Source: Gemmatimonadota bacterium
GTDB lineage: Bacteria; Gemmatimonadota; Gemmatimonadetes; Gemmatimonadales; Gemmatimonadaceae
Assembly (NCBI GenBank): GCA_021413975.1
Contig: JAIOPJ010000016.1
Location: forward strand, 248,001-312,000
Length of the DNA stretch: 64,000 bases
Direction: 5' to 3'
Each line of letters opens with the position of its first letter. Positions within the stretch are counted from its first letter, which is position 1. A model generated the notes under the pieces. That model was given only the letters and a program-made list of their open reading frames with translations, searched no databases and was not told where the DNA came from. The translations under genes and the position numbers were made by a program. Below, piece by piece: positions 38,538 through 52,127 of this stretch.

Positions 38538-40022
38538 CTAGTCCACCGGCGCCCAATGGTGCACGGGCTCGTCGCTGTCGTAGCGCGCGGAGTACTCCGC
38601 GACGAGTCGTGCGAGGGCATCGCGGCGCGGGAGCTGCCTGCGCAGCGTCCGCAGCGCGCTCCGCTGCCACCGCGCCCCCGTCCGGCCGTTCTGCAACCGA
38701 CCGGAGATCACGCCGAGCAGTCGGCCCCGCTCCTCGGCTTCCACGCCGATCGACGCGAGCCCGCTGTCCGCGAGCGGAAGCAGTGCCTCGGCCAGCGCGC
38801 GCACCGGTCGCTCCCGGGGGGAGGTGCCGACGCCATCCGGCCAGAGCATCACGGCGTCCATGCCGTCGCGCGCGGCACGGTAGAAGCTCATCTCGGTCAT
38901 CAGGAAGGGACAGCCGAGCATGAAGCCGTCGATCGCGTCGCGGATGCCGAGCGTGAGGCCCACGAGCAGCGCCGCGTTCGCCATCATGTCGGTGATCGTC
39001 GGGCCGCTCGGCAACGTGCGGAACTCGATGCGGAGGTGGCCACCCTCGGACGGGTCGTAGATCGGGCGGTTCCAGCGCCAGATGGTGCCCTGGTGCAATC
39101 GCAGTTCGGCGAGCCGCGGGGCGCGCGCATCCGGGTGGTCGGGTGGCCCGTCGTCGCAGACGGGGAAGAGCGGCTGGTGCAGCCGCACGCCTTCGGCGAA
39201 GAGCTCCGGCGCCCCGCGCCGGACCCAGCCGTGGCCGAACGCGACCCGCGACGGGCGACGCCAGACGAGGTCGTCGGCCGGGCGGGCCTCCACGCTCTGC
39301 TTGAAGACCGCGATGCGGGTCTCGTCCCACAGCAGGTGGTCGAGGAAGACCGGGGAGTTGCCGGCGAGCGCCACGGCGATCGGCGTCGCGAGTTGCGCGG
39401 CGTTGTACGTATCGGCGAAGCGCTCGGCGCTCACGCGCAGGTGGATCTGGCACGACGTGTTGGCGCCTTCGAGCATGACCCCGTCGTACTGCATCGCCAG
39501 CGGTTCCTCGCCGTGGATCGCGACGCGCGCCGGTCCGCCGCGGAGACGGCCCACCTGCCGCTCGAGGGCACGGTAGCGCGCGACGTCGGTCATGGCGTCG
39601 CGCGTGACGTCCTCGGGCAGCACCGACGGGAGGATGCCGACCGGCAACAGGCGTGCTCCATGCAGGGCAGCGGCCGCCCGCGTGCCGGCGGTGAGCAACT
39701 CGCGCATCTCGTCGCCGAGCGCGGTGAACGGCCGCCCCGCGGCCGGCACCGGCGTGAGATTGAACTCGACGTTGAACCGCGCGATCTCGACCGTGGCGCG
39801 AGGGTCGTTCAGTTCCCGCAGGACGTCGGTGTTGCAGGGGCAGGGCCGCTGGTCCGCGCCGACGATCGGCACCTCGAGCTCGGCCCCGAGGGTCGCGGGG
39901 CCCTCGCCGAAGCCGGGCTCGTCGCAGATCCTGCTGAGGTGGGCCACCTGATCGACGAGGCGCCCGGCGAACCGGGCCTGATCGTCCTCGCTGAACGTGT
40001 CCTGCGTGATCGCGATCGCCAC
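38538..40022 (-). CDS. Glutamate-cysteine-ligase-like carboxylate-amine ligase
   Basis: A 494-residue GCS-family enzyme. TLGAELEVPIVG gives the ATP/metal glutamates, EIARFNVEFNLTP the substrate strand, GANTSCQIHLRVSAE the core, and HLRIEFRTLPSGPTITDMMA the late part. The fold condenses a gamma-carboxylate, typically of glutamate, with an amine. The usual product would be gamma-glutamylcysteine, but no glutathione synthetase is adjacent and context points to another amide. A GTG start follows GGAG by seven bases. It is the last of eleven genes that run from 52127. Confidence 0.82.
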   Translation of the reverse strand: MAIAITQDTFSEDDQARFAGRLVDQVAHLSRICDEPGFGEGPATLGAELEVPIVGADQRPCPCNTDVLRELNDPRATVEIARFNVEFNLTPVPAAGRPFTALGDEMRELLTAGTRAAAALHGARLLPVGILPSVLPEDVTRDAMTDVARYRALERQVGRLRGGPARVAIHGEEPLAMQYDGVMLEGANTSCQIHLRVSAERFADTYNAAQLATPIAVALAGNSPVFLDHLLWDETRIAVFKQSVEARPADDLVWRRPSRVAFGHGWVRRGAPELFAEGVRLHQPLFPVCDDGPPDHPDARAPRLAELRLHQGTIWRWNRPIYDPSEGGHLRIEFRTLPSGPTITDMMANAALLVGLTLGIRDAIDGFMLGCPFLMTEMSFYRAARDGMDAVMLWPDGVGTSPRERPVRALAEALLPLADSGLASIGVEAEERGRLLGVISGRLQNGRTGARWQRSALRTLRRQLPRRDALARLVAEYSARYDSDEPVHHWAPVD

Positions 40023-40038
40023 CGTCCCACTCCGTCGT

Positions 40039-40812
40039 CTAGGCGCGCGCGCGCCGCCAGGCAGATGACGCGTCCACGAACTCCTTGAACAGGTGGCGCG
40101 TGTGCGGATCCGTCAGTTCGAACACCTCGGGGTGCCATTGCACGCCAACGATGAACGCGTCGGCATCGTCGAGCTCGACGGCTTCCACGAGCCCATCGGG
40201 CGCGACCGCCGTGGCCACGAGGCCGCGGCCGATCGTCTTGAGACCCTGATGGTGCATGGAGTTCACGCCGATGCGTTCGACCTCGATCGCATGCCGCAGG
40301 CGCGAGCCCTTGGCGATCGTGACCTCGTGCGCGATGTGGTCGCGCTCGAAGCCGAAGGTGGGGAAGTAGTCGTGCTTCATCGCGGTGGTGCACTGGTGCT
40401 CGAGGTCCTGCCAGAGCGTGCCCCCCTGCGCGACGTTGAGCACCTGCGCGCCGCGGCAGAGTCCGAGGAACGGCTTCTTGTCCTCGATCGCCCAACGGGC
40501 CAGCATGAGTTCGGTGCGATCGCGCGCGGGGTCGAGATTGCCGAGCCGGGGATGGGGTTCCTCGCCGTACGTCGCCGGGTCCATGTCCACACCGCCGGGC
40601 ACGAGCACGCCGTCCACGCGCTCGTAGAGCTCGCGCAGCGTGTCCTCGTCGTCGTCGAGCAGGGGCACGAGCGCGGGCACCGCCCCCACGAGCGTGACCG
40701 CGTGGTAGTAGCGCTGGTTCATCACCACCGACTGCGGCAGACCGGCGGGGATGCCGTCGATCGACTGCAGGGTCTGCATGGTGACGGCGATGAGCGGGCG
40801 GTAGCGGGCCAT
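40039..40812 (-). CDS. Peptidase C26 / PuuD-like gamma-glutamyl hydrolase
   Basis: A 257-residue class I glutamine-amidotransferase-like hydrolase. The nucleophile is the Cys in FLGLCRGAQVLN and the His-Glu of VGVQWHPEVFEL completes the triad. PuuD-type enzymes split gamma-glutamyl amides, for example gamma-glutamyl-GABA. It starts at an ATG 116 bases after the YbdK gene and ends 16 bases before the GCS-like gene, so a ligase and a hydrolase of gamma-glutamyl bonds sit side by side. Confidence 0.88.
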   Translation of the reverse strand: MARYRPLIAVTMQTLQSIDGIPAGLPQSVVMNQRYYHAVTLVGAVPALVPLLDDDEDTLRELYERVDGVLVPGGVDMDPATYGEEPHPRLGNLDPARDRTELMLARWAIEDKKPFLGLCRGAQVLNVAQGGTLWQDLEHQCTTAMKHDYFPTFGFERDHIAHEVTIAKGSRLRHAIEVERIGVNSMHHQGLKTIGRGLVATAVAPDGLVEAVELDDADAFIVGVQWHPEVFELTDPHTRHLFKEFVDASSAWRRARA

Positions 40813-40864
40813 GCGGCGTGTGTGGGCTGAGGTCGGCCGGGCTCGTGCGGAGCGCCGGAGCAGT

Positions 40865-40875
40865 GATACAGTATC
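40865..40875. promoter_or_regulatory. Short palindrome in the longest gap of the ligase operon
   Basis: GATAC-A-GTATC lies in the 116-base gap between the YbdK and C26 genes, the largest gap in this operon. On the minus strand it gives TACTGT, a possible -10 box for an internal promoter about 50 bases before the C26 start. Confidence 0.3.
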
Positions 40876-40928
40876 GGTCCGGCCTGCCGGTCGCGCAGGT
40901 CGGGGAACCGCTGATGCGGGGTGGGGGA

Positions 40929-42041
40929 CTACAGAACCCCTTCCTCGGTCTCGCGGATGAGGTGGTCGACGACCGCCTTCATGTCACCGCCGGACTCGTC
41001 GAAGACCTTCAGTTGGCGATCGGCGCTCGATCCCTCGTCGAGGATGCGGAAGGCGTACTCGACCTCCTTGCGCGTGCCGAGCTCGTCGAGCACGTCGCCG
41101 AGGAACCACTCGATGAACTCGCGGATGAGCTCCCGCGCCGGCTGTTCGGTGCGCTTGCCGAAGTCGATCAACTTGCCGTCGAGCCCGTAGCGCACCGCGC
41201 GCCACTTGTTCTCGTCGATCAGGTCCGACGGATACACGCGGAAGGTGATGTTGTCGCGGCGCATCTTCCAGAGCTTGTGGACGAGCGCCTGGAGGATCGC
41301 CGCGATGCAGACGGCCTCGTCGACGCGCGTGCAGACGTCGCAGATGCGGAACTCGAGGGTCGGGTACAGGTGGTGCGGGCGGACGTCCCACCAGATCTTG
41401 GAGCCGTCGGGGATGCAGCCCGTCTCGACGAGCGTGTCGGAGTAGTTCTTGAAGTCCGCCCAGCTGGCGAGCGGGCGGGGCACGCCACTGCGCGGGAAGG
41501 CGCGGAAGATCACCGATCGGTACGACTTGAGCCCGGTGCGGCGCCCGATCCAGAACGGCGACGAGGTCGAGAGGCAGAGGATGTGCGGCAGGAAGTACCG
41601 CGCGACGTTGCACACGTCGATCATCAGCTCGCGGTCCTCGATCCCGATGTGCACGTGGGTCCCGAAGATCAGGAGCTGCTCGGCGAGCTGCGCCATGGCC
41701 TCCTTCGTGCCCACGTAGCGGTCGAGCGCCGTGATCGGCTGGTCCTTCCAGTGCGAGAACGGATGCGTGCCGGCGGCCGCGATCTTGAGGTCGCGCTTGG
41801 CCGCGAGCTCCATGAGGCCACCGCGCAGCATGACGAGCTGCGCCCGCACCTCGGCCGGCGTCTGGCAGACGGTCGTGCCCACCTCGACGATCGACTGGTG
41901 CAGCTCGGGCTTCACCTGGCGCAGGACCATGTGGTCCGACTCGAGGATCTCCGAGATGTACGCCTTCAGTTCACGCGTCCTGGGGTCGATGATCTGGTAC
42001 TCCTCTTCGACACCGATCGTCAGCGTTGGGCGTTTCAGCAT
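40929..42041 (-). CDS. YbdK-type carboxylate-amine ligase
   Basis: A 370-residue member of the GCS2/YbdK family. [15 protein letters not shown] provides the glutamates for ATP and metal, followed by [25 protein letters not shown] and [16 protein letters not shown]. Family members show weak glutamate-cysteine ligase activity in vitro, and their true substrates are unknown. The ATG at 42041 opens directly at the first strand. Bases 42042-42066 separate it from the circularly permuted ATP-grasp gene. Confidence 0.9.
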
Positions 42042-42066
42042 GGCGGCACGCGAGTAGGGGTGGGAC

Positions 42067-43449
42067 TCAGGGACGGCGATCGACGAGGAAGGTCGGCGTC
42101 TGGCTGCCGCCGCCCGCGGTGACGTTGAGCAACTCGGCCGTGGAGAGCCGCGAGAGCGCACCCTCCACCCAGCGGCCGTCGATCACGTACGGAGCGGTGT
42201 CCACCTGGCGCTCGATGAGCGCGAGCGCGCCGCCCTCGATCGACGGATACACCTCACGGGGGATCGAGACGCGCTGCTGGACGATGGTCGGCGTGCTCAC
42301 CGCGGTCGCGAGTGCGGCGTTCCAGGTCGTCGCGTCGACCGTCCAGCCGAGGACGATCCCGTGGCCGCCGTACGCATCGCTCGGCTTGATCACGAGCCGG
42401 TCGCGGTTCCCGGCGCACCAGGGCAGCAGGTCCACCTCGGGTCCATCGGGCCCGCGCGTCCTGCGGGCCTCGACGACGCGCGTCCACGGGATGTGCGCGC
42501 GGATCGCCGCGTGCATCGCCGTGTCGAACCACGAGGCGTTGCGTTCATCGCTCAGCACGGCCAGCGAGGTCTTCTTGTGCAGGAGCTTGCCGCGGGGTCC
42601 GTTCACCATGAGCACGGCACCGGCGCGCATCGCCTGCAGGACCGGCGTGTCGATGCCGGCGCGCGTGACGAGCTCCTCGAACAGCACGCGCTTGTAGACG
42701 ACGTCCACCGGCGCACCGTGCAGGCGCAGCACGCCGCCGGCGAACTCGCATTCGCGCGGATCGCCGATCTCGCAGGGGATGCCGCGGGCGCGGAACTGCG
42801 CCTGGGCGAGCCGGAACTCGCTCTGCGTCGGCACCTCCGGCCAGTCGAGGATCGCCACGCGTGGCACCGAGCGCACCCCGCGGAAGCGCTCCCAGGCGTC
42901 GAGCAGCGGACGGATGGTGCCGGCGCCGGCGGGCAGGGGGCGCAGCCACCAGTCGCGCGCCATCACACGCGTGATCGGCAACTGCTCGAATGCCGCGGCG
43001 ATCGCATCGTTGTAGAAGGGCCCCGCGGGGGTCTCGCCGTTGTACTCGGTGACCGAGAACCCCTGACCATCCGGCGACGCGAAGGTGTCGAGCCGGCCGA
43101 GCGGTTCGTAGGGCGCGTCCGCGTGCTGTGCGGCCGAAGCGACGAAGAGCGACTCCTCCCACTCCTCGAGCAGGAACTGTGCGCGCGCGGCCGGATCGGC
43201 CACGGCGCGGGCCTTGGCGGCCCGGAACGCGGAGAGCAACGCCGACGCCTGCGTGCGATATCGGTCCCATTCGTCGGGGGCGAAGAGGCGTGGGCGCAGC
43301 ACGGTGCAGAGGGGCCGCCCGCCGAACACGACGTCCTGCCGCTTGAGGTCGTCCGCCAACTGCGCCCACGACGCCTGAGCGAGTCCCGCGTCGGCCGTGA
43401 GGCGCTCGTGCCACGCCGCAGCCGCCTGCGCGGCGACGGTGGTGCTCAC
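42067..43449 (-). CDS. Circularly permuted ATP-grasp ligase
   Basis: A 460-residue protein of the circularly permuted ATP-grasp class. [14 protein letters not shown] (135-148) is followed by [11 protein letters not shown] (250-260), [20 protein letters not shown] (283-302) and [17 protein letters not shown] (353-369), the order seen when the ATP-grasp halves are swapped. No C-terminal alpha-E domain is present. It should join a carboxylate to an amine using ATP, with unknown partners. A GTG start overlaps the preceding RimK-like stop (GTGA), so the two ligases are translated together. Confidence 0.78.
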
Positions 43450-44396
43450 GCGCGACTCGCCTTGAACATCGCCGCCCAGCCGAGCGCCTCGGCCTGCTTG
43501 CGCGGGTCGTTCGCGAGCGCGATCGACAGGTCGGCCATGTGGCTCACCACCCACTGGAAGTACCCGGGGGTGAGCGAGTTGATGTCGAAGTCGGGCGCGG
43601 GATTCATGAAGTCGATCGCATAGGGCACGCCATCCTTGACCGCGAACTCGATCGAGTTCATGTCGTAGCCGAGCGCCTTCACGATGGTGCGGCAGTCCTT
43701 CGTGACGCGTTCCCGGAGCTTGGGCCCCATGTACTCGTTGTCGACGATGTAGGCCCGCGCGCGCGGGTCGTAGCGGATCGGGAGGACCTCGTCCTGGCCG
43801 AGGCAGATGCACCGCACGAAGTGATCGAAGTCGATGAACTCCTGCAGGATCATCGTGAGGAGGCCGCTCTCGTTGTAATGCTCGATGAGCTCCGCCTTGC
43901 TGCGGCAGATGTAGACCTCCTTCCAGCCACCGCCATGCGCGTCCTTGAGCACGCAGGGGAGGCCGACGTACTCGAGGATGCCGTCCCAGTCGAGCGGGTA
44001 TTGCAGGTTGCGCAACGATTCGCTCGGCACGATGCCGGGGACGTAGTCCTTGTTGGGCAGGAGCACCGTGCGCGGCGAGACCACGCCGAGCTTGGTGATG
44101 AGCGACGCGCCGAAGAACTTGTCGTCGGCGGTCCACATGAACGGATTGTTGATGACGGTGCGCCCCTGGAGCACCGCGTGCTTCAGGTACGACCGGTAGG
44201 TCGGCACCTCATGCGAGATGCGGTCGATGAGGACGTCGTACGGGACGGGGCCGTCGTGGTGCGTGCCACCGATGGTGGCGAACTCGGCCGTGACGCCCGC
44301 GTCGCGGCCGTTCACCTCGTCGATGAATGCCGGCGGGAAGGACCATTCGCGGCCCACCACGAGGCCGATCCGCTTCTGCTGCGTGCGCTTCGTCAT
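43446..44396 (-). CDS. RimK-like ATP-grasp ligase
   Basis: A 316-residue ATP-grasp protein. After an N-terminal pre-ATP-grasp domain (IGLVVGREWSFPPAFIDEVN), GLPCVLKDAHGGGWKEVYI gives the glycine-rich loop, MILQEFIDFDHFVRCI the adenine-side strand, and YAIDFMNPAPDFDINSL the metal-binding site. It would activate a carboxylate as an acyl phosphate and pass it to an amine. It begins 20 bases after the esterase gene and is coupled by GTGA to the permuted ATP-grasp gene. Confidence 0.85.
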   Translation of the reverse strand: MTKRTQQKRIGLVVGREWSFPPAFIDEVNGRDAGVTAEFATIGGTHHDGPVPYDVLIDRISHEVPTYRSYLKHAVLQGRTVINNPFMWTADDKFFGASLITKLGVVSPRTVLLPNKDYVPGIVPSESLRNLQYPLDWDGILEYVGLPCVLKDAHGGGWKEVYICRSKAELIEHYNESGLLTMILQEFIDFDHFVRCICLGQDEVLPIRYDPRARAYIVDNEYMGPKLRERVTKDCRTIVKALGYDMNSIEFAVKDGVPYAIDFMNPAPDFDINSLTPGYFQWVVSHMADLSIALANDPRKQAEALGWAAMFKASRA

Positions 44397-44416
44397 GTCT
44401 GCCTCGCTCCCGGGGC

Positions 44417-45148
44417 TCAGTCGTGTCCGTCGACGTACAGCGTGATCATGTCTTCCCACCAGGGCCAATCGTGCGCGAAGCCGTCCCAGCCGCGCAGGGC
44501 ATTGCCGATCCCCTTCTTCCAGAGCCGGCCGGAGAACTCCTGATTGTCGCCCCAGGCCGGATCGCCCTTGCCGCAGGCGATGATGATGTCCATCCGCTGC
44601 ATCGCCTCGATCCGGTGCGCTTCCCATTCGTTCTGCACGAAGTCGAAGGGGTTGCACTTGTACACGAGCTCATCCGAGGCGCCGTCGGTCATGCCGCGGA
44701 TGTCATAGCGGCCGCTCATGCCGATCACGCGATTCACCATCTGCGGATTACGGAGCGCGAAGCACATCGCATGGTAGGCGCCGAAGCTCGCGCCGGCCGC
44801 GATCACGAACGGATGCGAGTTCACGTGCGCGGTGAAGGGGAGCAACTCGTCGCGCAGGTAGGCGTCATAGCGCAGGTGACGCCAGGCCCGTTCGTGCACC
44901 GGGATGCTCTTGTCGTACCAGCTCTGGTCGTGGTTCTGGTCGAGCGTGAAGAGCGTGAGCCAGCCGCGCTCGATCTTCTCGCGCAGCACGTCGGGCATGT
45001 AGCGGTTGGGCCACTCGTTGTGATCGCCCATGGTCGTGGGGAACGCGAGCAGGCGCGCGCCTCCGTGCCCGAACCAGCGCACATGCATGCGACGGCCGGC
45101 GGCGGGGGAGTCCCAGCTGTGGTGATGTCCCTTGACCCGCGTGCTCAT
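44417..45148 (-). CDS. Esterase-family alpha/beta hydrolase (first of a pair)
   Basis: A 243-residue hydrolase. VIAAGASFGAYHAMCFALRN carries the GxSxG nucleophile elbow; an Asp in IIIACGKGDPAWG and the late HDWPWWEDM histidine are the likely triad partners. It has no signal peptide. It resembles esterase D/PHB depolymerase-like enzymes and could release or transfer an acyl or peptidyl group. Its ATG overlaps the stop of the second esterase gene by four bases (ATGA). Confidence 0.8.
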   Translation of the reverse strand: MSTRVKGHHHSWDSPAAGRRMHVRWFGHGGARLLAFPTTMGDHNEWPNRYMPDVLREKIERGWLTLFTLDQNHDQSWYDKSIPVHERAWRHLRYDAYLRDELLPFTAHVNSHPFVIAAGASFGAYHAMCFALRNPQMVNRVIGMSGRYDIRGMTDGASDELVYKCNPFDFVQNEWEAHRIEAMQRMDIIIACGKGDPAWGDNQEFSGRLWKKGIGNALRGWDGFAHDWPWWEDMITLYVDGHD

Positions 45149-45942
45149 GCCGGCTCCTCCAGGAGGAAGGGCAGGGCGCGCTTGAGCCGCCGTCCCCAGG
45201 CGGATTCGTGGTGCTGCCCGGTCCTCTGTTCCATGTAGTGCAATGTGCGCCCCGGTTCGTAGCCCTTGTCGCGCAGGAGGTCCCGCATGCGCCGCGCGTT
45301 GCGCAACGTGCCCGTTCCTTCCCTGCCGCCCACGTCCAGGAAGATCCGTCCCGGCACCGCGGACGCCGCCGCAACGTAGTCGAAGATCGCGCCGCCGGCG
45401 AACCAGAGGGCCGGGCTCTGCACGGACGCGCGGCCGAACACCTCGGGGAAGCGGAAGAACGCGTACAGCGAGATCAGGCCGCCGAGGCTCGCGCCGCCGA
45501 TCACGGTGTGCTCGCGACCCCCCAGCGTGCGGTAGTCGGCGTCGATGCGCGGCTTCACCGTGCGGATCAGGAACTGCAGGTACCGTTCGCCGGCCCCGCC
45601 GCCGACCTTGGGGTCGATGAACGGGCTGTACTCGTCCACCCGGCGCTCGTTCGCGTTCGCGACGCCGACCAGGATCGCCTCGTATCCGAGCCGGGCGGCG
45701 GCATCGGCCGCCGTGTCGGCACCCCACGACCCCGCGAACGAGAGCCGCGGGTCGAAGAGGTTCTGGCCGTCGTGCAGATAGACCACCGGGAACTGCCCGC
45801 CCTCGTCGTACGAAGGCGGCAGGAACACGAAGACATCGCGCCGGTTGCCCAGCTCGGGCGACCAGACCCCCGGGAGGCGCACATGCCGCCCGGGACGGGC
45901 GCGCCGTCGCGGGAAGCGTGCGAGGGAGAGGCCGGCTTCCAC
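45145..45942 (-). CDS. Enterochelin-esterase-like alpha/beta hydrolase (second of a pair)
   Basis: A 265-residue hydrolase. FLPPSYDEGGQFPVVYLHDG is the typical N-terminal part, VIGGASLGGLISLYAFFRFP the nucleophile elbow, and HHESAWGRRL supplies the late His. Enterochelin esterase-like enzymes cut ester-linked conjugates. A GTG start follows the ATP-grasp stop after four bases. An internal GTG (at VRLPGVW) could be the real start, and would leave the fold whole. Confidence 0.82.
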   Translation of the reverse strand: MEAGLSLARFPRRRARPGRHVRLPGVWSPELGNRRDVFVFLPPSYDEGGQFPVVYLHDGQNLFDPRLSFAGSWGADTAADAAARLGYEAILVGVANANERRVDEYSPFIDPKVGGGAGERYLQFLIRTVKPRIDADYRTLGGREHTVIGGASLGGLISLYAFFRFPEVFGRASVQSPALWFAGGAIFDYVAAASAVPGRIFLDVGGREGTGTLRNARRMRDLLRDKGYEPGRTLHYMEQRTGQHHESAWGRRLKRALPFLLEEPA

Positions 45943-45946
45943 TCCT

Positions 45947-47164
45947 TCAGTCCGCGAACAGGCGGAGGTCGGTCCCGAAGTCGTCGGCGATCCGGCAGGC
46001 GGTGTCCCAGTCGGGGTGACGGATCACGACGTAGCCGTCGGAGATCAGGGTCTGCACCCAGTCGCGCCGCGGCGCGCCGACCGGGAGCAGGTCCACCAGG
46101 ATCACGTGCTCGCCGTGACGCTCCATGAGTTGCGCGAGGCCCTCGATCCGCGAGATGCGCCCCTGGCCCTGGGCGCGCTTGAAGATGTTGATCGCGTTGT
46201 ACGCACGCGGCCTGTTCGCGGTGAACGTGCCCTTCAGTTCCGCCTCGGCATACCCCGTGAAGACGTCGATGTCGGCGGTGAAGTTCATGAGGTCCACGGT
46301 GTTGGCACCGGGCGGGCGCGCGGCGATCTCGCTGAAGACCGCCTCGCCCGACGGCGTGAGGAACCACTCCATGTGCGTGAAGCCGGTCTTGAAGCCCATC
46401 ACCTTGAGCACCTCGCGCCCGAGCGTGATGCCCGGCTGGAGGTGCGGCTGGCTCAGATCGCGCACGGCCAACGTCTGCGGTGACACCCACTCGTTGCTGC
46501 GCGAGATCAGCGGCTTCGGGCGATAGTAGCCCATGTTCTCGTAGAGCACCCGGCCGTCGGCGCAGATGGTGTCGTAGTGGTACTCCTCGCCGATGATGAA
46601 CTCCTCGACGTTCACCTCGGCCACATGCCCCAAGCGCGCGATCGCCTGCTCGAGCTCCTGCGGCGTGTCCACGCGGAAGGTGTCCATCGACCCGGCGCCG
46701 TCGATCGGCTTGATGATCGCGGGGTAGCCCACCTTCTCCACGGCCGCCCGCACCTCGGCGGACGTGGCGGCGCGCGCGTGACGCGCCGTGCGCAGTCCCG
46801 CCGCCTGGATGACCTGCTTCATGATGTCCTTGTCGCGGAAGCGGTGCGCCATCTCCAGGTCGATCCCCGGGACGCCGAGCGCTTCGCGGATGCGCGCGGC
46901 GAGCACCACCGCAGGCTCCCAGAGGGCGACGACGCGATCGACCGTGCGGGCGCCCATGAACTTCGTGAGCGCGCCGACCACACCCATCTCGTCGCGCAGC
47001 GATGCGACCTGCAGGTACTCGGAGAGATGCTGCCGCGCGAGCTCGGGGAGCGCCGAGACCGGTTGGTCCCCCACGCCGATCACGTGCGCGCCATGCTCGG
47101 CGAGTCCGCGCACGAAGTGCGGCATCTCCGAGGGATAACCGGGGGCGATGAAGACGACGTTCAT
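45947..47164 (-). CDS. ATP-grasp ligase A (carnosine-synthase/CPSase-like)
   Basis: A 405-residue ATP-grasp enzyme. YPAIIKPIDGAGSMDTFRV (near 147-165) is the ATP loop, NVEEFIIGEEYHYDTI the next strand, and THMEWF with FSEIAARPPGAN (about 263-288) the metal and substrate end. The order is that of amino acid and dipeptide ligases related to carbamoyl-phosphate synthetase and carnosine synthase. It shares these blocks with the next upstream gene, and the two are probably old duplicates. It starts 19 bases after that gene. Confidence 0.87.
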   Translation of the reverse strand: MNVVFIAPGYPSEMPHFVRGLAEHGAHVIGVGDQPVSALPELARQHLSEYLQVASLRDEMGVVGALTKFMGARTVDRVVALWEPAVVLAARIREALGVPGIDLEMAHRFRDKDIMKQVIQAAGLRTARHARAATSAEVRAAVEKVGYPAIIKPIDGAGSMDTFRVDTPQELEQAIARLGHVAEVNVEEFIIGEEYHYDTICADGRVLYENMGYYRPKPLISRSNEWVSPQTLAVRDLSQPHLQPGITLGREVLKVMGFKTGFTHMEWFLTPSGEAVFSEIAARPPGANTVDLMNFTADIDVFTGYAEAELKGTFTANRPRAYNAINIFKRAQGQGRISRIEGLAQLMERHGEHVILVDLLPVGAPRRDWVQTLISDGYVVIRHPDWDTACRIADDFGTDLRLFAD

Positions 47165-47183
47165 GGTCAGGTCCGTTGAGGGG

Positions 47184-48407
47184 TCAGCCGAGTTCCACGT
47201 GGATGAGCGACACGATCCGTTCGAGGGCGTCGCTCACGACCGCCGTCTCGGGATGCCGCACGATGATGAAGCCTTCGCCTTCGTAACTCCCGGTCCGCCC
47301 CATGCCGATGGTGGGGAGGCGATGGTCGCACACCATCGCGCCGAACTCGCGCGCGACCGTCTCGATCCCGTGCACGGCGCGCACCGTGCCCGTGCCCTGG
47401 CCCCGGAGGAAGGCGGCCCCCACGGCGTACTTCCGCACCGGCGGCCGGAACTCGCCGAAGATGACCGTGCGCGCCCATTCCTGCAGGAAATCGAAGTCGT
47501 TCGCCCGCGAGACGAGGGTCGTGATCTGGGCGCCCGGCGGGCGCGCCCCCACCTCCCCGATGGCCACGCTGCCGTCCTTGCGCCGGAACCACTCCATGTG
47601 CGTGAGGCCGGTCTGCATCCCGAGCGCGGACAACCCGCCGGCCGCCGCCCGCTTGATGTCGTCGAAGCGCGGGTCGTCGACCTCGCGCGGCAGCAGCACG
47701 CACCACTGGATCCACTGGTTGCGCACCACGTCGAGCGGTGTGGGACGGTAATGCGTGAGCGAATGCCAGACCGCCTCGCCCTCGATCGAGATCGTCTCGA
47801 GCGAATGCTCGCTGCCGACGATGAACTCCTCGAGCAGCGTGGGATGTTCCTCACCCGGCGGCGCGGCGCCCAGCGCGACGAGCAACTGCGCCTCGTTCTC
47901 GACGCGGAAGGTGCTCACCGATCCCGCGCCGTCGGGTGGCTTCACCACGAGCGGGTAGCCGATCCGCGCCGCGGCGGCGCGCCCCTCGTCGACCGAGCGC
48001 ACCAATGCATGCCGTGCGCAGGGGATCCCGGCCGAGCGGAGGATGTCCTTCATCCTCGCCTTGTCGCGGAACGCGCGCGTGGTCTCGGCGCTCATGCCGG
48101 GGACCCCGAGCATCTCGCGCGCCTCGGCGATCGGCACCTGCGCCTGCTCGAGCGAGCCCCACAACCGGTGGATCGGTTCGCCGACCATCGCCGAGAGCCC
48201 GCGCGCGGCCCGCTCGAGTTGCCCCGGGTCGAGCACTTCGTCCACGCGCCAGTGCGCCGTCAGGAGTCCCCTCAGGTAGTCGGGGGCCTCCTCCTGCCGC
48301 TGCTGGCCGATCACGCCGAGTCGCACGCCGGGCAGCGTGGCGATCGCCGCCATGGTGCGGCTCGCGGGATCGGAGAAGAAGGGCGCGACGAAGATCACGA
48401 ACGGCAT
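47184..48407 (-). CDS. ATP-grasp ligase B (paralogue of ligase A)
   Basis: A 407-residue ATP-grasp enzyme with the same block order as the gene downstream: YPLVVKPPDGAGSVSTFRV, TLLEEFIVGSEHSLETIS, LTHMEWF and IGEVGARPPGAQ. It differs in the N-terminal recognition domain (VIFVAPFFSDPASRTMAAIA). Two related ligases may add two residues in turn to a growing chain, or form a heteromer. It begins 22 bases after the GH57 gene. Confidence 0.87.
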   Translation of the reverse strand: MPFVIFVAPFFSDPASRTMAAIATLPGVRLGVIGQQRQEEAPDYLRGLLTAHWRVDEVLDPGQLERAARGLSAMVGEPIHRLWGSLEQAQVPIAEAREMLGVPGMSAETTRAFRDKARMKDILRSAGIPCARHALVRSVDEGRAAAARIGYPLVVKPPDGAGSVSTFRVENEAQLLVALGAAPPGEEHPTLLEEFIVGSEHSLETISIEGEAVWHSLTHYRPTPLDVVRNQWIQWCVLLPREVDDPRFDDIKRAAAGGLSALGMQTGLTHMEWFRRKDGSVAIGEVGARPPGAQITTLVSRANDFDFLQEWARTVIFGEFRPPVRKYAVGAAFLRGQGTGTVRAVHGIETVAREFGAMVCDHRLPTIGMGRTGSYEGEGFIIVRHPETAVVSDALERIVSLIHVELG

Positions 48408-48429
48408 GGCGCCTCCGCTGGTGTCGTGG

Positions 48430-50532
48430 TCATGACCAGGTCACCCACTCGGCCAGGAACTCCTCGGCGAAGCCGAGCCGGATGGCGAGGCCGGTGAACG
48501 GTCCGCGCGCCTCGGGCGCGAGGGCGCGCACGCGCCGCGCGAAGTGCGACTGCACCTCGTACGGCAGGTGATGGCCGCTCAGCTCGAGGAGGTCGACGAG
48601 ATCCGACGCACGCGCGACGTGGGCCGCCGCGTCGCGTTCGCCGATGCTGCGCACCTCCGCGTCGAGCTCCGCGACCGCCGAGTCGACGAGACCGGGCGCC
48701 CCGAGCGCCATCGCCGCGAGGCGGGTCTCGCCGAAGAGCCGCTGCGCGAGTTCGCGCTGCCGGGCCGCGCGCACGCCGTGCAGCACCGCCTCGCGCTCCC
48801 GCTCCGGGAAGTCCTGCAGCAGCACGGGCACCGTCCCTGCGAGGCGGCCGGCGTCCGCGGACTCGTCGAGGTCGGGACGCGGATGCACGAAGGCCTGCGC
48901 ATCGGCGACGCCCCGGCGCTGCACCGAGACGTCGAAGACGTGCTTGCGTCCGGTGCGCCGGTGCACGAGGAGCACGCGGGCCGCGTTCACGTCGACGTCG
49001 AACGCGCGGGTGTCCGGCTCCTTCCATCCGGGCACGAAGGCCTGCGCCGCCGCGAGTCCGCCGGCGACGCGCACGAGCGGCGAGACCGACGGCCAGATCT
49101 GCTGGGCCCAGATGTCCTCGCCGGTGCCGAGCGCGGGATCGTTGCTGAGCGCCTCCCGCAACGCGCGGCGGAGCGCGCGTTCCATGGCGTCGTCCCCGGC
49201 GAGTTCGATCGCGCGCGCCGCATAGCGCAGCGCCTGCGTCGTCATGCTGCGGCCGATGTCGTCATAGAACCAGGCGCTCGACGTGAACATGCGCAGCGCG
49301 TCGCGCATCATCTCGAGCAGCTCGCGCGCGCGGATCACCTGCACCGACGACAGGCCGGGAGCGAGCAGCGTCGCGACGAGCGCGTCACGCTCGGCCGCGG
49401 GCGCCGCGACCACGGCGCCGTACGCATCGCGCGCCGCCCATGGATCCAGGAACAGCGGCGTCGCCTCGGCGAGGTAGCGCTCGTGCAGGGCGTCGCGCAG
49501 GGATTCCAGGCCGCGCCGGAGGGGCTCGCGCCAGGATTGATCGGGGGCCTTGGCCGCGTCCTCGCGACACCCGCAGTCGGTGCGCCAGCGGCCCACGCCA
49601 TGCGGACAGCTCCACGAACTCGGTCCCACCAGCGCGATCGTCTCCGCGGGCGGATGCGCCGCCAGCACCTCGGCGAACGAGGAGAGCGCCACGTCGGGCG
49701 TCGCCTTGAGCTCCTGCACGACCCAGGCCAACGCCATCTCGCTGAAGCGGTGGTGATGCCCGAACGTCTCCCCGACGGTCGCCACCGTGATCACCTGCGG
49801 GGTCGTCTGCGCCTGCTGTCCCTCGAGCAGGTCGGCCTTCCAGACCCGCGCGTTGGCGAGCAACGGGCCGAAGGAGACGTTGTGCGAGCGCGTGCCGTCG
49901 TAGACGAAGATCGCGATCCCACGGCCGCCGGTCGTGACGTAGCGACCGGGCAGGCCATTCGCCGGCACGGTCCGCACCTGGTTCGGCGCGAGCACGGTGA
50001 ACCGGATCCCTTCCTGCGCGAGCACGTCCAGCGTCTCGTCATCGACGGCCGTCTCCGGCAGCCACATCCCCTCGGGCGCGCGGCCGAAGCGCCGGCGGAA
50101 GTCGGCGATGCCCCAGCGGACCTCGGTCACCTTGTCGCGGCGCGTCGCCAGCGGCAGGATCACGTGATGATACGGATGCGCGATCGCCGTGCCATGTCCC
50201 GTGCGCTGCACGGCCTGCCGGTCGCCGTCGAGCATGGCGCGGTAGGTCGTGGGCGCGTGGTGCTCCAGCCAGTCCAGGAGCGTCGGCGCGACGTTGAACG
50301 ACATGTGCGCCGTGAGGTTCACGATGCGCGCGATCTTCCCCTCGGGGTTCAGCACGCGCGCCGACACGACCGGGCGGTAGCACTCGCGCTCGATCCGCTC
50401 GTGGAAGTCATGCCACGGGGCGGCGCGCGGCGCGCGCGGGATCTCCTCGAGCCATGGGTCCTCGCGCGGAGGCTGGCAGAAATGGCCGTGGATGACGATG
50501 CGCCGGAGCGCCGGCGACGCGGAGTCGGTCAC
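48430..50532 (-). CDS. GH57-family glucan-active enzyme with DUF3536 domain
   Basis: About 700 residues. The N-terminal 300 residues are a GH57 (beta/alpha)7 barrel: VIHGHFCQPPREDPWLEE at the first strand, RRFGRAPEGMWLPETAVDDE with the probable nucleophile Glu, and TVGETFGHHHRFSEMALA. The rest is the DUF3536 helical and beta region. GH57 enzymes cut, transfer or branch alpha-glucans, so branching, trimming or a glucanotransferase step is possible. The GTG start overlaps the glgA-like stop (GTGA). It links the glucan enzymes to the ligase genes downstream. Confidence 0.85.
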   Translation of the reverse strand: MTDSASPALRRIVIHGHFCQPPREDPWLEEIPRAPRAAPWHDFHERIERECYRPVVSARVLNPEGKIARIVNLTAHMSFNVAPTLLDWLEHHAPTTYRAMLDGDRQAVQRTGHGTAIAHPYHHVILPLATRRDKVTEVRWGIADFRRRFGRAPEGMWLPETAVDDETLDVLAQEGIRFTVLAPNQVRTVPANGLPGRYVTTGGRGIAIFVYDGTRSHNVSFGPLLANARVWKADLLEGQQAQTTPQVITVATVGETFGHHHRFSEMALAWVVQELKATPDVALSSFAEVLAAHPPAETIALVGPSSWSCPHGVGRWRTDCGCREDAAKAPDQSWREPLRRGLESLRDALHERYLAEATPLFLDPWAARDAYGAVVAAPAAERDALVATLLAPGLSSVQVIRARELLEMMRDALRMFTSSAWFYDDIGRSMTTQALRYAARAIELAGDDAMERALRRALREALSNDPALGTGEDIWAQQIWPSVSPLVRVAGGLAAAQAFVPGWKEPDTRAFDVDVNAARVLLVHRRTGRKHVFDVSVQRRGVADAQAFVHPRPDLDESADAGRLAGTVPVLLQDFPEREREAVLHGVRAARQRELAQRLFGETRLAAMALGAPGLVDSAVAELDAEVRSIGERDAAAHVARASDLVDLLELSGHHLPYEVQSHFARRVRALAPEARGPFTGLAIRLGFAEEFLAEWVTWS

Positions 50533-52127
50533 GCGCCCCTCCGGGCGGCCGCGAAACGGTAGACGTCGCGGTACCGCGCCTCGGCGTGTTCCCACCCGAA
50601 GTCGCGCCCCATCGCCTCGCGCTGCATCCGGGCGAACGTCGCCGCGTCGCGGTAGGCCAGCACGGCGCGCGCCGTGCCGTGCAGGAAGTCGTCGGAGGTG
50701 TATTCGTCGAAGAGGAAGCCGGTGACCCCGTCCTCGATCGTGTCCGCGAGGCCGCCCACGCGCCGCGCGAGCGGCAGCGCGCCGTAGCGCTGCGCGCGCA
50801 TCTGGGTGAGGCCGCAGGGCTCGTACATGCTGGGCATCAGGCAGAGGTCGGCGCCCGCGAGGAGCCGGTGCTCGAGGCGATCGGTGAAGTTGAGCTGCAC
50901 GCCCAGCCGGTCCGGCGCGCGGCGCGCCAGGTCGAGCAGCGCGCGTTCGTACCGCTCCTCGCCCGCGCCGAGGAACACGAACTGCGCATCGAGCGTCAGG
51001 AAGCCCGAGCCGAAGATCAGGTCGAGGCCCTTCTGGTAGACCATGCGCGCGCTCATGCCCACGAGCGGCGTGCGCGCCCGCTTGGGAAGGCCGAAGAGGC
51101 GTTGCAGCGATGCCTTGCAGGCGGCCTTGCCGCTCAGGTCGTCGCGGGAGAAGCGCGCCGCGATCTGCGTGTCGGTCGCGGGATCCCACTCCTCCTGGTC
51201 GATCCCGTTCACGATCCCGATGAACCGGGCCCCGAGCTCGCGGAAGGCATCGTGCAGGCCGAAGCCGCCGGCCTCGGTGCGCAGCTCATCGGCGTGGGTC
51301 GGACTCACCGTCACCACCGCGTCGGCGAGCGACATCCCTCCCTTGAGGAGGTTCATGCGCCCGTACCACTCCAGGTGGTGCAGGGTGTAGAGCGACCAGG
51401 GCAGGCCGAGGTCGGCCATGGTCGCGGCCGGGTAGTGTCCCTGGAAGCCCGCGTTGTGCACGGAGAGCACGGCGCCCACGCGCGCGTACCGGGTGTCGTG
51501 CGCGAGCAGGCCGCGCAGATACACCGGCACGAGCGCCGCATGCCAGTCATGTGCATGCACCACGACCGGTCCGTCGCTGATGCGCGGCAGCGCCTCGATC
51601 ACGGCCAGCGAGAAGCAGGCATAGCGCCGGGCGTTGTCGCGGAACTCGCCTTGCGCGTCGCCGTAGATGCCGTCGCGGCCGAAGTAGGTCGGACTCGCGA
51701 CGAAGATGACCCGAGGGGAGGGCGGCCCGACGGGGCGCACGAGTTCGAGGAGCGTGACCTCCTCGGACCGTCCGCCGACGGGCACCTGGAGCGGCGGACC
51801 GAGCGGCGTCACGGGCGGCGCCTTGCGCGCGACATCGCCGTAGTAGGGCATGACGATCGTGACGTCGATGCCGGCCTTGGCCTGGAACCGCGCGAGCGTC
51901 CGCACCGCTTCGCCGAGGCCACCGGTGCGCGCGAACGGCGCCAGCTCGGCCGTCGCGTGCACCACCGAGATGGGCGCACCGGACGACGTCGCGAGCGCGA
52001 CCGCCGGCTGCGCACTCGCCTTCGAAGCCTTCGTTGGCGTCGGCTTCGTCGTCGATCGGTCGCGGGTGCGTCGGGTCATGCGGTCGGCGGAGGTCCGGGC
52101 GAGGCGCGCGCGCTGCTCGCGCCGCAT
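50529..52127 (-). CDS. glgA: Glycogen-synthase-like GT5 glycosyltransferase
   Basis: About 532 residues (or 516 from the internal ATG at 52079). Typical GT5 blocks are present: ELAPFARTGGLGEAVRTLAR, VVVHAHDWHAALVPVYL, LSVHNAGFQG, GIVNGIDQEEWDP and PSMYEPCGLTQMRAQRYG. Standard GlgA has KTGGL at the ADP-glucose site; here it reads RTGGL, so donor use may differ. It heads the eleven-gene minus-strand operon. Neither start has a ribosome site; a TAGATT box (52146-52141) lies 13 bases before the ATG at 52127. The first 50 residues are a basic, low-complexity tail. Confidence 0.85.
   Translation of the reverse strand: MRREQRARLARTSADRMTRRTRDRSTTKPTPTKASKASAQPAVALATSSGAPISVVHATAELAPFARTGGLGEAVRTLARFQAKAGIDVTIVMPYYGDVARKAPPVTPLGPPLQVPVGGRSEEVTLLELVRPVGPPSPRVIFVASPTYFGRDGIYGDAQGEFRDNARRYACFSLAVIEALPRISDGPVVVHAHDWHAALVPVYLRGLLAHDTRYARVGAVLSVHNAGFQGHYPAATMADLGLPWSLYTLHHLEWYGRMNLLKGGMSLADAVVTVSPTHADELRTEAGGFGLHDAFRELGARFIGIVNGIDQEEWDPATDTQIAARFSRDDLSGKAACKASLQRLFGLPKRARTPLVGMSARMVYQKGLDLIFGSGFLTLDAQFVFLGAGEERYERALLDLARRAPDRLGVQLNFTDRLEHRLLAGADLCLMPSMYEPCGLTQMRAQRYGALPLARRVGGLADTIEDGVTGFLFDEYTSDDFLHGTARAVLAYRDAATFARMQREAMGRDFGWEHAEARYRDVYRFAAARRGA

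Follow-up and report, generated by a model that had tools for sequence, protein, structure and literature searches.

The window, a 64,000-nucleotide stretch of contig JAIOPJ010000016.1 from a Gemmatimonadota bacterium, carries a run of eleven minus-strand open reading frames (ORFs) that extends from position 52127 down to 38538 and belongs to a 3.08-Mb, 56-contig genome (G000). The genes were named g1 to g11 by transcription order and are listed in Table 1. From g1 to g11, the intergenic gaps are -4, 22, 19, 4, -4, 20, -4, 25, 116 and 16 bases. These ORF coordinates agree with a sequence-only reading of this DNA, which had described a single minus-strand run at 38538-52127 with gaps of -4 to 25 bases plus one of 116. 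That reading had counted four ATGA or GTGA overlaps, whereas we found 4-base overlaps at three junctions: g1/g2 (GTGA), g5/g6 (ATGA) and g7/g8 (GTGA). Its family annotations were upheld, and since g7, g8 and g11 score under the curated cut-offs, the assignments of these three rest on fold or profile comparison. The guanine-plus-cytosine (GC) fraction at third codon positions (GC3) is 0.90-0.95 in all 11 genes, and the GC fraction of the run is 0.703 compared to 0.700 and 0.701 in the flanks.

Table 1. Features of the eleven-gene run (positions are those of the window)
Feature	Coordinates	Strand	Length (amino acids)	Assignment
g1	50529..52127	-	532	GT5 glycogen/starch-synthase-like glucosyltransferase; length from first ATG, true start may be downstream
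g2	48430..50532	-	700	GH57 (PF03065) + DUF3536 (PF12055); 4-base overlap with g1
g3	47184..48407	-	407	ATP-grasp ligase; PF02222/PF13535
g4	45947..47164	-	405	ATP-grasp ligase, paralogue of g3; PF02222, PF18130
g5	45145..45942	-	265	Alpha/beta-hydrolase, esterase family PF00756 (E 1e-29)
g6	44417..45148	-	243	Alpha/beta-hydrolase, divergent PF00756 (E 2.8e-8); core gene
g7	43446..44396	-	316	RimK/Ddl-fold ATP-grasp ligase, no Pfam family; core gene
g8	42067..43449	-	460	Glutathione-synthetase/GspS-fold ATP-grasp ligase; core gene
g9	40929..42041	-	370	YbdK-family carboxylate-amine ligase (GCS2)
116-base gap, g9 to g10	40813..40928	-		Coincides with a module boundary; g10-g11 an independent pair in L214 and L215
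g10	40039..40812	-	257	Class C26 gamma-glutamyl hydrolase, PuuD-like; PF07722 (E 6.2e-63, above cut-off)
g11	38538..40022	-	494	Remote GCS2-fold ligase; PF04107 under cut-off (E 0.0049)

Within the run, g6-g7-g8 is a conserved core neighbourhood that recurs across Gemmatimonadota, Chloroflexota and Planctomycetota, and g9 and g10 join it in Gemmatimonadota. The core is linked by location and by presence and absence to g3-g4 and to alpha-glucan genes. Neighbourhoods were compared around g7, the marker gene. Sixty regions and 80 named loci gave 140, or 126 after removal of 14 duplicates; 74 of these extended for 6 kb or more to either side of g7 (full-flank loci), and the 52 in which g7 lay within 6 kb of an end were dropped from the full-flank counts. 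The co-occurrence counts and the Fisher test are uncorrected for kinship. A match to g7 was found in 71 of 249 Gemmatimonadota genomes, the window's own included, and 12 of the 71 carry a distant type with about 30-35% identity. None was found in the ten same-genus genomes searched (the genus has 16 others, six of which were unsearched).

In the 41 full-flank main-type Gemmatimonadota loci, the genes lying within 8 kb of g7 were g8 in 41, g9 in 39, g10 in 38, g6 in 27, g5 in 26, g2 in 15, g3 and g4 in 11 each, g1 in 9 and g11 in 2. Among the loci examined, the full set from g1 to g11 was found only in the window and in one other locus (L072 of G203), which has a GH57 branching enzyme between g1 and g2. 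Collinear runs of g1 to g10 were seen in L076 and L091 and of g5 to g11 in L073, and g10-g11 form a separate pair in G156 and G135. Close homologues of g11 (at least 49% identity) occur in 7 genomes, all 7 with g7; the wider g11 family (E <=1e-20) occurs in 67 genomes, only 13 of them with g7. Because modules lie apart in loci outside the window and L072, the gene set is not one conserved operon. The eleven genes instead make up at least three modules (the glucan genes with g3-g4, g5 to g10, and g10-g11) of one uncharacterised modular pathway. The sequence-only reading had proposed a single system, which holds as far as a functionally linked set is concerned and gives way where one operon was meant. 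Rare co-occurrence of the homologues, which would have spoken against a single system, did not appear in the neighbourhood comparison. A mobile element was considered and rejected: no match to g7 was found among plasmids, the 18 pattern matches found in viral contigs do not encode any relative, and the GC fraction equals that of the flanks.

A scan of genome contigs confirmed at least 543 relatives of g7. By record title, the best 80 span Gemmatimonadota, Chloroflexota (Anaerolineae, Caldilineales and Ardenticatenia) and Planctomycetota (Gemmata, Isosphaera and Fimbriiglobus), so the core is found in at least three phyla by title. The scan provided 27 full-flank loci, titled Chloroflexota (18), Planctomycetota (3), Gemmatimonadota (5) and other (1). 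Within 8 kb of g7, the 18 Chloroflexota loci have g6 in 18, g8 in 17, g9 in 4 and g10 in 2, and the 3 Planctomycetota loci have g6 in 3, g8 in 2 and g9 in 2. One locus titled Candidatus Kuenenia stuttgartiensis (L164, CALQGY020000050.1) shares a 3-kb stretch with L054, which is from a genome in the same family as the window (G218), and the title of this record is probably wrong. At another locus, in a Chloroflexota-class genome (L234, G385:C81:1-7706), two tandem distant g7-like ligases (29-30% identity) adjoin g5-like and g6-like hydrolases.

The ligases of the core resemble enzymes of amide-bond formation at the level of fold. For g7, the best family model was TIGR00768 (RimK; E 2.4e-9), with 37 bits against a cut-off of 143.4, which leaves g7 outside that family. 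Its AlphaFold2 model (mean predicted local distance difference test score, pLDDT, 83.6) matches D-Ala-D-Ala ligase (Ddl), RimK and ArgX. Likewise, g8 stayed below the cut-off of PF14403, the circularly permuted ATP-grasp type 2 family (E 0.0015, 18 against 32 bits). Foldseek matched the g8 model (mean pLDDT 90.1) to human and plant glutathione synthetase, 3n6x, E. coli GspS, YjfC and the E-64 ligase Cp1B, chains to which g8 is 11-18% identical. A profile of 28 g8 sequences also found 3n6x, a putative glutathionylspermidine synthase (E 1.9e-9). The assignment of g9 to the YbdK family is firmer, with scores above the curated cut-offs of NF010039 (512 against 371 bits) and TIGR02050 (283 against 176 bits) and a match to YbdK in PDB entry 1r8g (E 1.4e-41). 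BLASTP detected no significant similarity between g11 and g9; hhalign aligned g11 with the g9 homologues over 331 columns (E 1.4e-5, probability 80%). Glutathione biosynthesis as such was rejected, as g9 reached 71 of the 249 bits required by TIGR02048 (GshA equivalog) and g8 was without an NCBIfam match.

The remaining ATP-grasp ligases, g3 and g4, are 32% identical across 391 columns and travel together: g3 adjoins g4 in all eight g4 regions mapped. Lys and Glu residues of putative catalytic type are conserved in g3 across 33 sequences. The presence of g4 follows that of g7 closely. It occurs in 44 of the 249 Gemmatimonadota genomes (E <=1e-80), and all 44 are among the 71 with g7, a pattern to which kinship contributes. 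This nesting is not due to proximity, because g4 lies more than 170 kb from g7 in G019, G039 and G074. The pair is also part of a glucan block. In G040, G090 and G102, the order g1-branching enzyme-g2-g3-g4 is found on the contig that carries g7, at a distance of about 9 to 63 kb; in L212 and L213 a glucan phosphorylase gene (GlgP) stands ahead of g1, giving GlgP-g1-branching enzyme-g2-g3-g4 as one block. Two known pathways were rejected for these ligases on bit scores: the N-acetylglutaminylglutamine amide (NAGGN) pathway for g4 (TIGR03103, 21.8 against a cut-off of 569) and cyanophycin synthesis for g3 (TIGR02068, 39.1 against 850). Against DdaF, g4 scores 24 bits with a cut-off of 840.

The residue conservation of the hydrolases was examined in alignments of homologues that cover 85% of the query and contain no stop; for g5, at least 35% identity was also demanded. 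At least 97% of the sequences conserve the GASLG motif, Ser152 and His244 in g5 (59 sequences), the GASFG motif, Ser121 and His226 in g6 (105 sequences), and Cys119, His227 and Glu229 in g10 (75 sequences). The enzymes look catalytically competent. By profile, the nearest solved chains to g6 are esterases, and g10 matches PuuD (6vtv, E 1.5e-28).

Both g1 and g2 belong to families of alpha-glucan metabolism. The predicted g1 protein passes PF08323, the starch-synthase catalytic domain, with 221.9 bits against a cut-off of 22.7 (E 1.3e-65). The canonical donor-site motif of glycogen synthase is K-x-G-G-L. At this site g1 has ARTGGLG and thus lacks the lysine expected of a GT5 glycogen synthase, and all 16 homologues with an ungapped alignment across the motif share the arginine. 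This replacement of lysine by arginine may point to a different sugar donor. For g2, the motifs HGHF and ETFGHH correspond to HGHFY and ETYGHH in PoGH57, a DUF3536 protein with suggested 4-alpha-glucanotransferase activity (PMC11206854). The same source gives HxHLP and ELF(Y)GHW as fingerprints of GH57 branching enzymes (PMC11206854), and g2 has neither, which sets it apart from the GH57 glycogen branching enzymes. A 4-alpha-glucanotransferase-type enzyme is the probable identity of g2.

An association between such glucan genes and the core was seen well beyond the window. Any of g1, g2, GlgP or the GH57 branching enzyme lies near g7 in 18 of the 41 main-type and 4 of the 6 distant-type Gemmatimonadota loci. 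Glucan gene and g7 are co-directional in some loci and convergent in others. At the level of whole genomes, g2 is present in 88 of 249 Gemmatimonadota genomes, 54 of which also have g7 (Fisher p 4.6e-17, not kinship-corrected). Within these 54, g2 lies at most 15 kb from g7 in 31 genomes spanning 13 genera, farther away on the same contig in 3, and on another contig in 20.

Members of the Anaerolineae showed a different connection to glucan. The additional genes near g7 were clustered and the 25 largest clusters were judged by eye; a subtilase (x2) and GlgP (x13) were chosen, and others of similar size were set aside. The subtilase gene adjoins g6-g7-g8; it shares their strand in 11 of the 12 loci examined. 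Of the 12 subtilases, 6 carry the glycogen-recognition domain CBM48/AMPK1_CBM, and one also matches PfkB. Among 249 Anaerolineae-class genomes, the subtilase family (E <=1e-40) occurs in 44, g7 in 63 and both in 41. The subtilase is within 10 kb of g7 in 25 of these genomes, on the same strand in 24. In 21 of the 44, a single unbroken alignment reaches through the CBM48 region. Of these 21 genomes, 19 have g7, at most 10 kb away in 9. A further ATP-grasp gene, g12, comes after the core in L160, L162, L224, L229 and L230; in L231 it comes before the core, on the opposite strand. Three ORFs scanned between g9 and g12 in Anaerolineae gave no Pfam match.

Several additional features of the subtilase genes were observed. 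One protein (L220:8584-11205, G380) combines a PfkB sugar kinase, a subtilase and CBM48, and is encoded on a contig other than that of g7. Frames of 880-908 amino acids that match the subtilase, similar in length to this protein, are present in G258, G269, G272 and G311. In each of the Anaerolineae-class loci L224, L225 and L230, a DUF2207 membrane protein gene is found upstream of the subtilase.

Taken together, we propose that the run encodes a pathway to a glutathione-like isopeptide and that this pathway is coupled to alpha-glucan metabolism, a reading to which we would give roughly an even chance. Glutathione synthetase and RimK-fold enzymes work through acyl-phosphate chemistry. In the proposed pathway, g9 would join the gamma-carboxyl of glutamate, or of a similar acid, to an amine, and g8 and g7 would add further residues via acyl phosphates. 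The g10 enzyme would remove or recycle gamma-glutamyl groups, and g5 and g6 would cut or transfer an ester. In Gemmatimonadaceae, g3-g4 might bridge the compound to an alpha-glucan that g1 synthesises and g2 remodels; in Anaerolineae, the subtilase, partly with its glycogen-binding domain, and g12 might take the place of g3-g4. The isopeptide would be kept together with the glucan, be bound to it or be attached to it.

A number of observations weigh against this reading. No window-type glucan gene was present in 23 of the 41 main-type Gemmatimonadota loci, nor near g7 in any of the 21 full-flank Chloroflexota (18) and Planctomycetota (3) loci, and only 1 of the 27 full-flank genome-contig loci, titled Gemmatimonadetes, has a glucan gene. 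A g2 homologue (E 1e-30) is missing from 17 of the 71 genomes with g7, and g2 occurs in 34 genomes in the absence of g7. CBM48 is absent from 6 of the 12 subtilases examined. Only 4 of 18 Chloroflexota loci have g9, so some loci do without the gamma-glutamyl step. To our knowledge, no natural reaction of YbdK has been established. The control, in which a glucan gene was found in 0 of 10 regions of the same genus around the menaquinone-biosynthesis gene mqnA, is weak because the same-genus genomes compared are without g2 altogether. Also, relatedness inflates all counts and many of the genomes are fragmented.

Alternatively, g6 to g10 may make a free, soluble gamma-glutamyl isopeptide or pseudopeptide, either glutathione-like or a compatible solute, with the glucan genes as ordinary storage neighbours. 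YbdK, a glutathione-synthetase-fold ligase and a C26 hydrolase are parts of a gamma-glutamyl pathway, and such a product would agree with the conservation of the core alone in Planctomycetota and Chloroflexota and with the single glucan gene in the 27 genome-contig loci. We consider it somewhat unlikely, however, since glucan genes are recurrently near the core across 13 genera in co-directional, convergent and separate-block arrangements, g3-g4 is common to the glucan block and the ligase locus, and some of the linked subtilases of another phylum carry CBM48. The sequence-only reading had suggested either a decorated alpha-glucan or a gamma-glutamyl small molecule. Its alpha-glucan connection gained support from other genera and from Chloroflexota, and the choice between a decorated glucan and a free gamma-glutamyl compound is undecidable from sequence.

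The glucan-coupled pathway could also take a more specific form, a peptidyl alpha-glucan. A gamma-glutamyl-type isopeptide made by g7-g9 with g3/g4 would be ester- or amide-linked to the glycogen of g1/g2, and the PF00756 and C26 hydrolases and the Chloroflexota CBM48 subtilase would serve in its transfer or removal. We regard this form as unlikely. If true, it would be a new type of storage polymer that holds carbon and nitrogen together, and covalent decoration would mean that bacterial glycogen is not always plain glucan. If the glucan link is false, the core remains a widespread, unassigned pathway with RimK-like and glutathione-synthetase-like ligases.

Another possible explanation is that the run modifies proteins. 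RimK attaches glutamates to a protein, and the fold of g7 resembles RimK. A comparable tagging or tailing, for example of glycogen-bound proteins, could be carried out by these ligases, with the subtilase and the C26 enzyme as removers. The g8-like E. coli proteins YgiC and YjfC are peptide-spermidine ligases according to a reference title cited in PMC12568646, which also fits. However, no conserved small-protein partner emerged from the extra-gene clustering near g7 (ORFs under ~90 amino acids were outside its scope), and g5, g6 and the YbdK-type ligase would seem better suited to small molecules, making protein modification improbable. That unrelated operons abut by chance is highly improbable: among the examined loci, only L072 and the window have the full set, the modules being separate elsewhere, and the wider g11 family shows no tie to g7, which 13 of its 67 genomes have, yet g4 is nested in g7 genomes in 44 of 44 cases, often unlinked, and the modules re-associate repeatedly in varying order and strand.

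The surroundings of the run were also examined. It is flanked by a family-2 glycosyltransferase gene on one side and, on the opposite strand, by a phosphorylase-superfamily gene and mqnA on the other; by its position, the phosphorylase-superfamily gene is presumably mqnB. None of g1-g11 was present in any of the ten same-genus regions around mqnB-mqnA examined. The mqnB-mqnA pair is kept in same-genus genomes and the remaining flanks vary, so no insertion site can be defined. In one genome of the genus (L206, G087:C13), a second, fragmentary mqnA-mqnB copy lies about 5 kb from the intact pair. No sigma-70-type promoter-like match was found in the 116-base gap between g9 and g10, and a promoter and terminator scan of the run gave matches at chance level. 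Open frames of 779 and 1549 amino acids that bear CBM48 are located about 11-16 kb past the right end of the window (G000:C7:323011-327950), which makes another glycogen locus on this contig probable.

The openly licensed (Creative Commons) PubMed Central literature gave no description of this gene set, and no product is on record in the literature searched for a ligase pathway whose marker gene has at least 543 relatives. Anti-phage defence was rejected, as a search of g3 to g11 against PADLOC-DB gave nothing beyond a weak match between g4 and Cas3b (E 0.006). The Anbu/alpha-E/transglutaminase system of circularly permuted ATP-grasp ligases has Anbu protease, alpha-E and transglutaminase genes alongside; Pfam detected none of these in the 11 genes and 6 flanking genes of the run (the rest of the genome was unsearched). 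Iyer and colleagues reportedly predicted, in 2009, amidoligase neighbourhoods with no assigned product that, like the run, mix ATP-grasp, GCS2 and peptidase or hydrolase genes. The glucan and CBM48 link comes from the present analysis.

Glutathione and glutathionylspermidine biosynthesis, like the run, pairs a GCS2-family ligase (g9, and remotely g11) with a ligase of the glutathione-synthetase/GspS fold (g8), and a gamma-glutamyl-cleaving enzyme (g10) is a further shared element. In contrast to these pathways, the run has no GshA equivalog above cut-off and has an extra RimK-like ligase, PF00756 hydrolases and glucan genes. The E-64 ligase Cp1B (PMC12568646), a structural match of g8, and the dapdiamide ligase DdaF are stand-alone ATP-grasp ligases that produce pseudodipeptides without a nonribosomal peptide synthetase (NRPS). 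As the Cp1B study shows, a ligase built like glutathione synthetase, yet with no sequence identity detectable to characterised ATP-grasp enzymes, can make pseudodipeptides in an NRPS-independent pathway (PMC12568646). The run differs from these systems in its organisms and in the partners of the ligases. Finally, bacterial glycogen operons contain GlgA, GlgP and GH57 enzymes, which are matched by g1 and g2 in the window and by GlgP and the GH57 branching enzyme in its relatives; unlike those operons, the run has two ATP-grasp ligases and an amide-ligase core attached.

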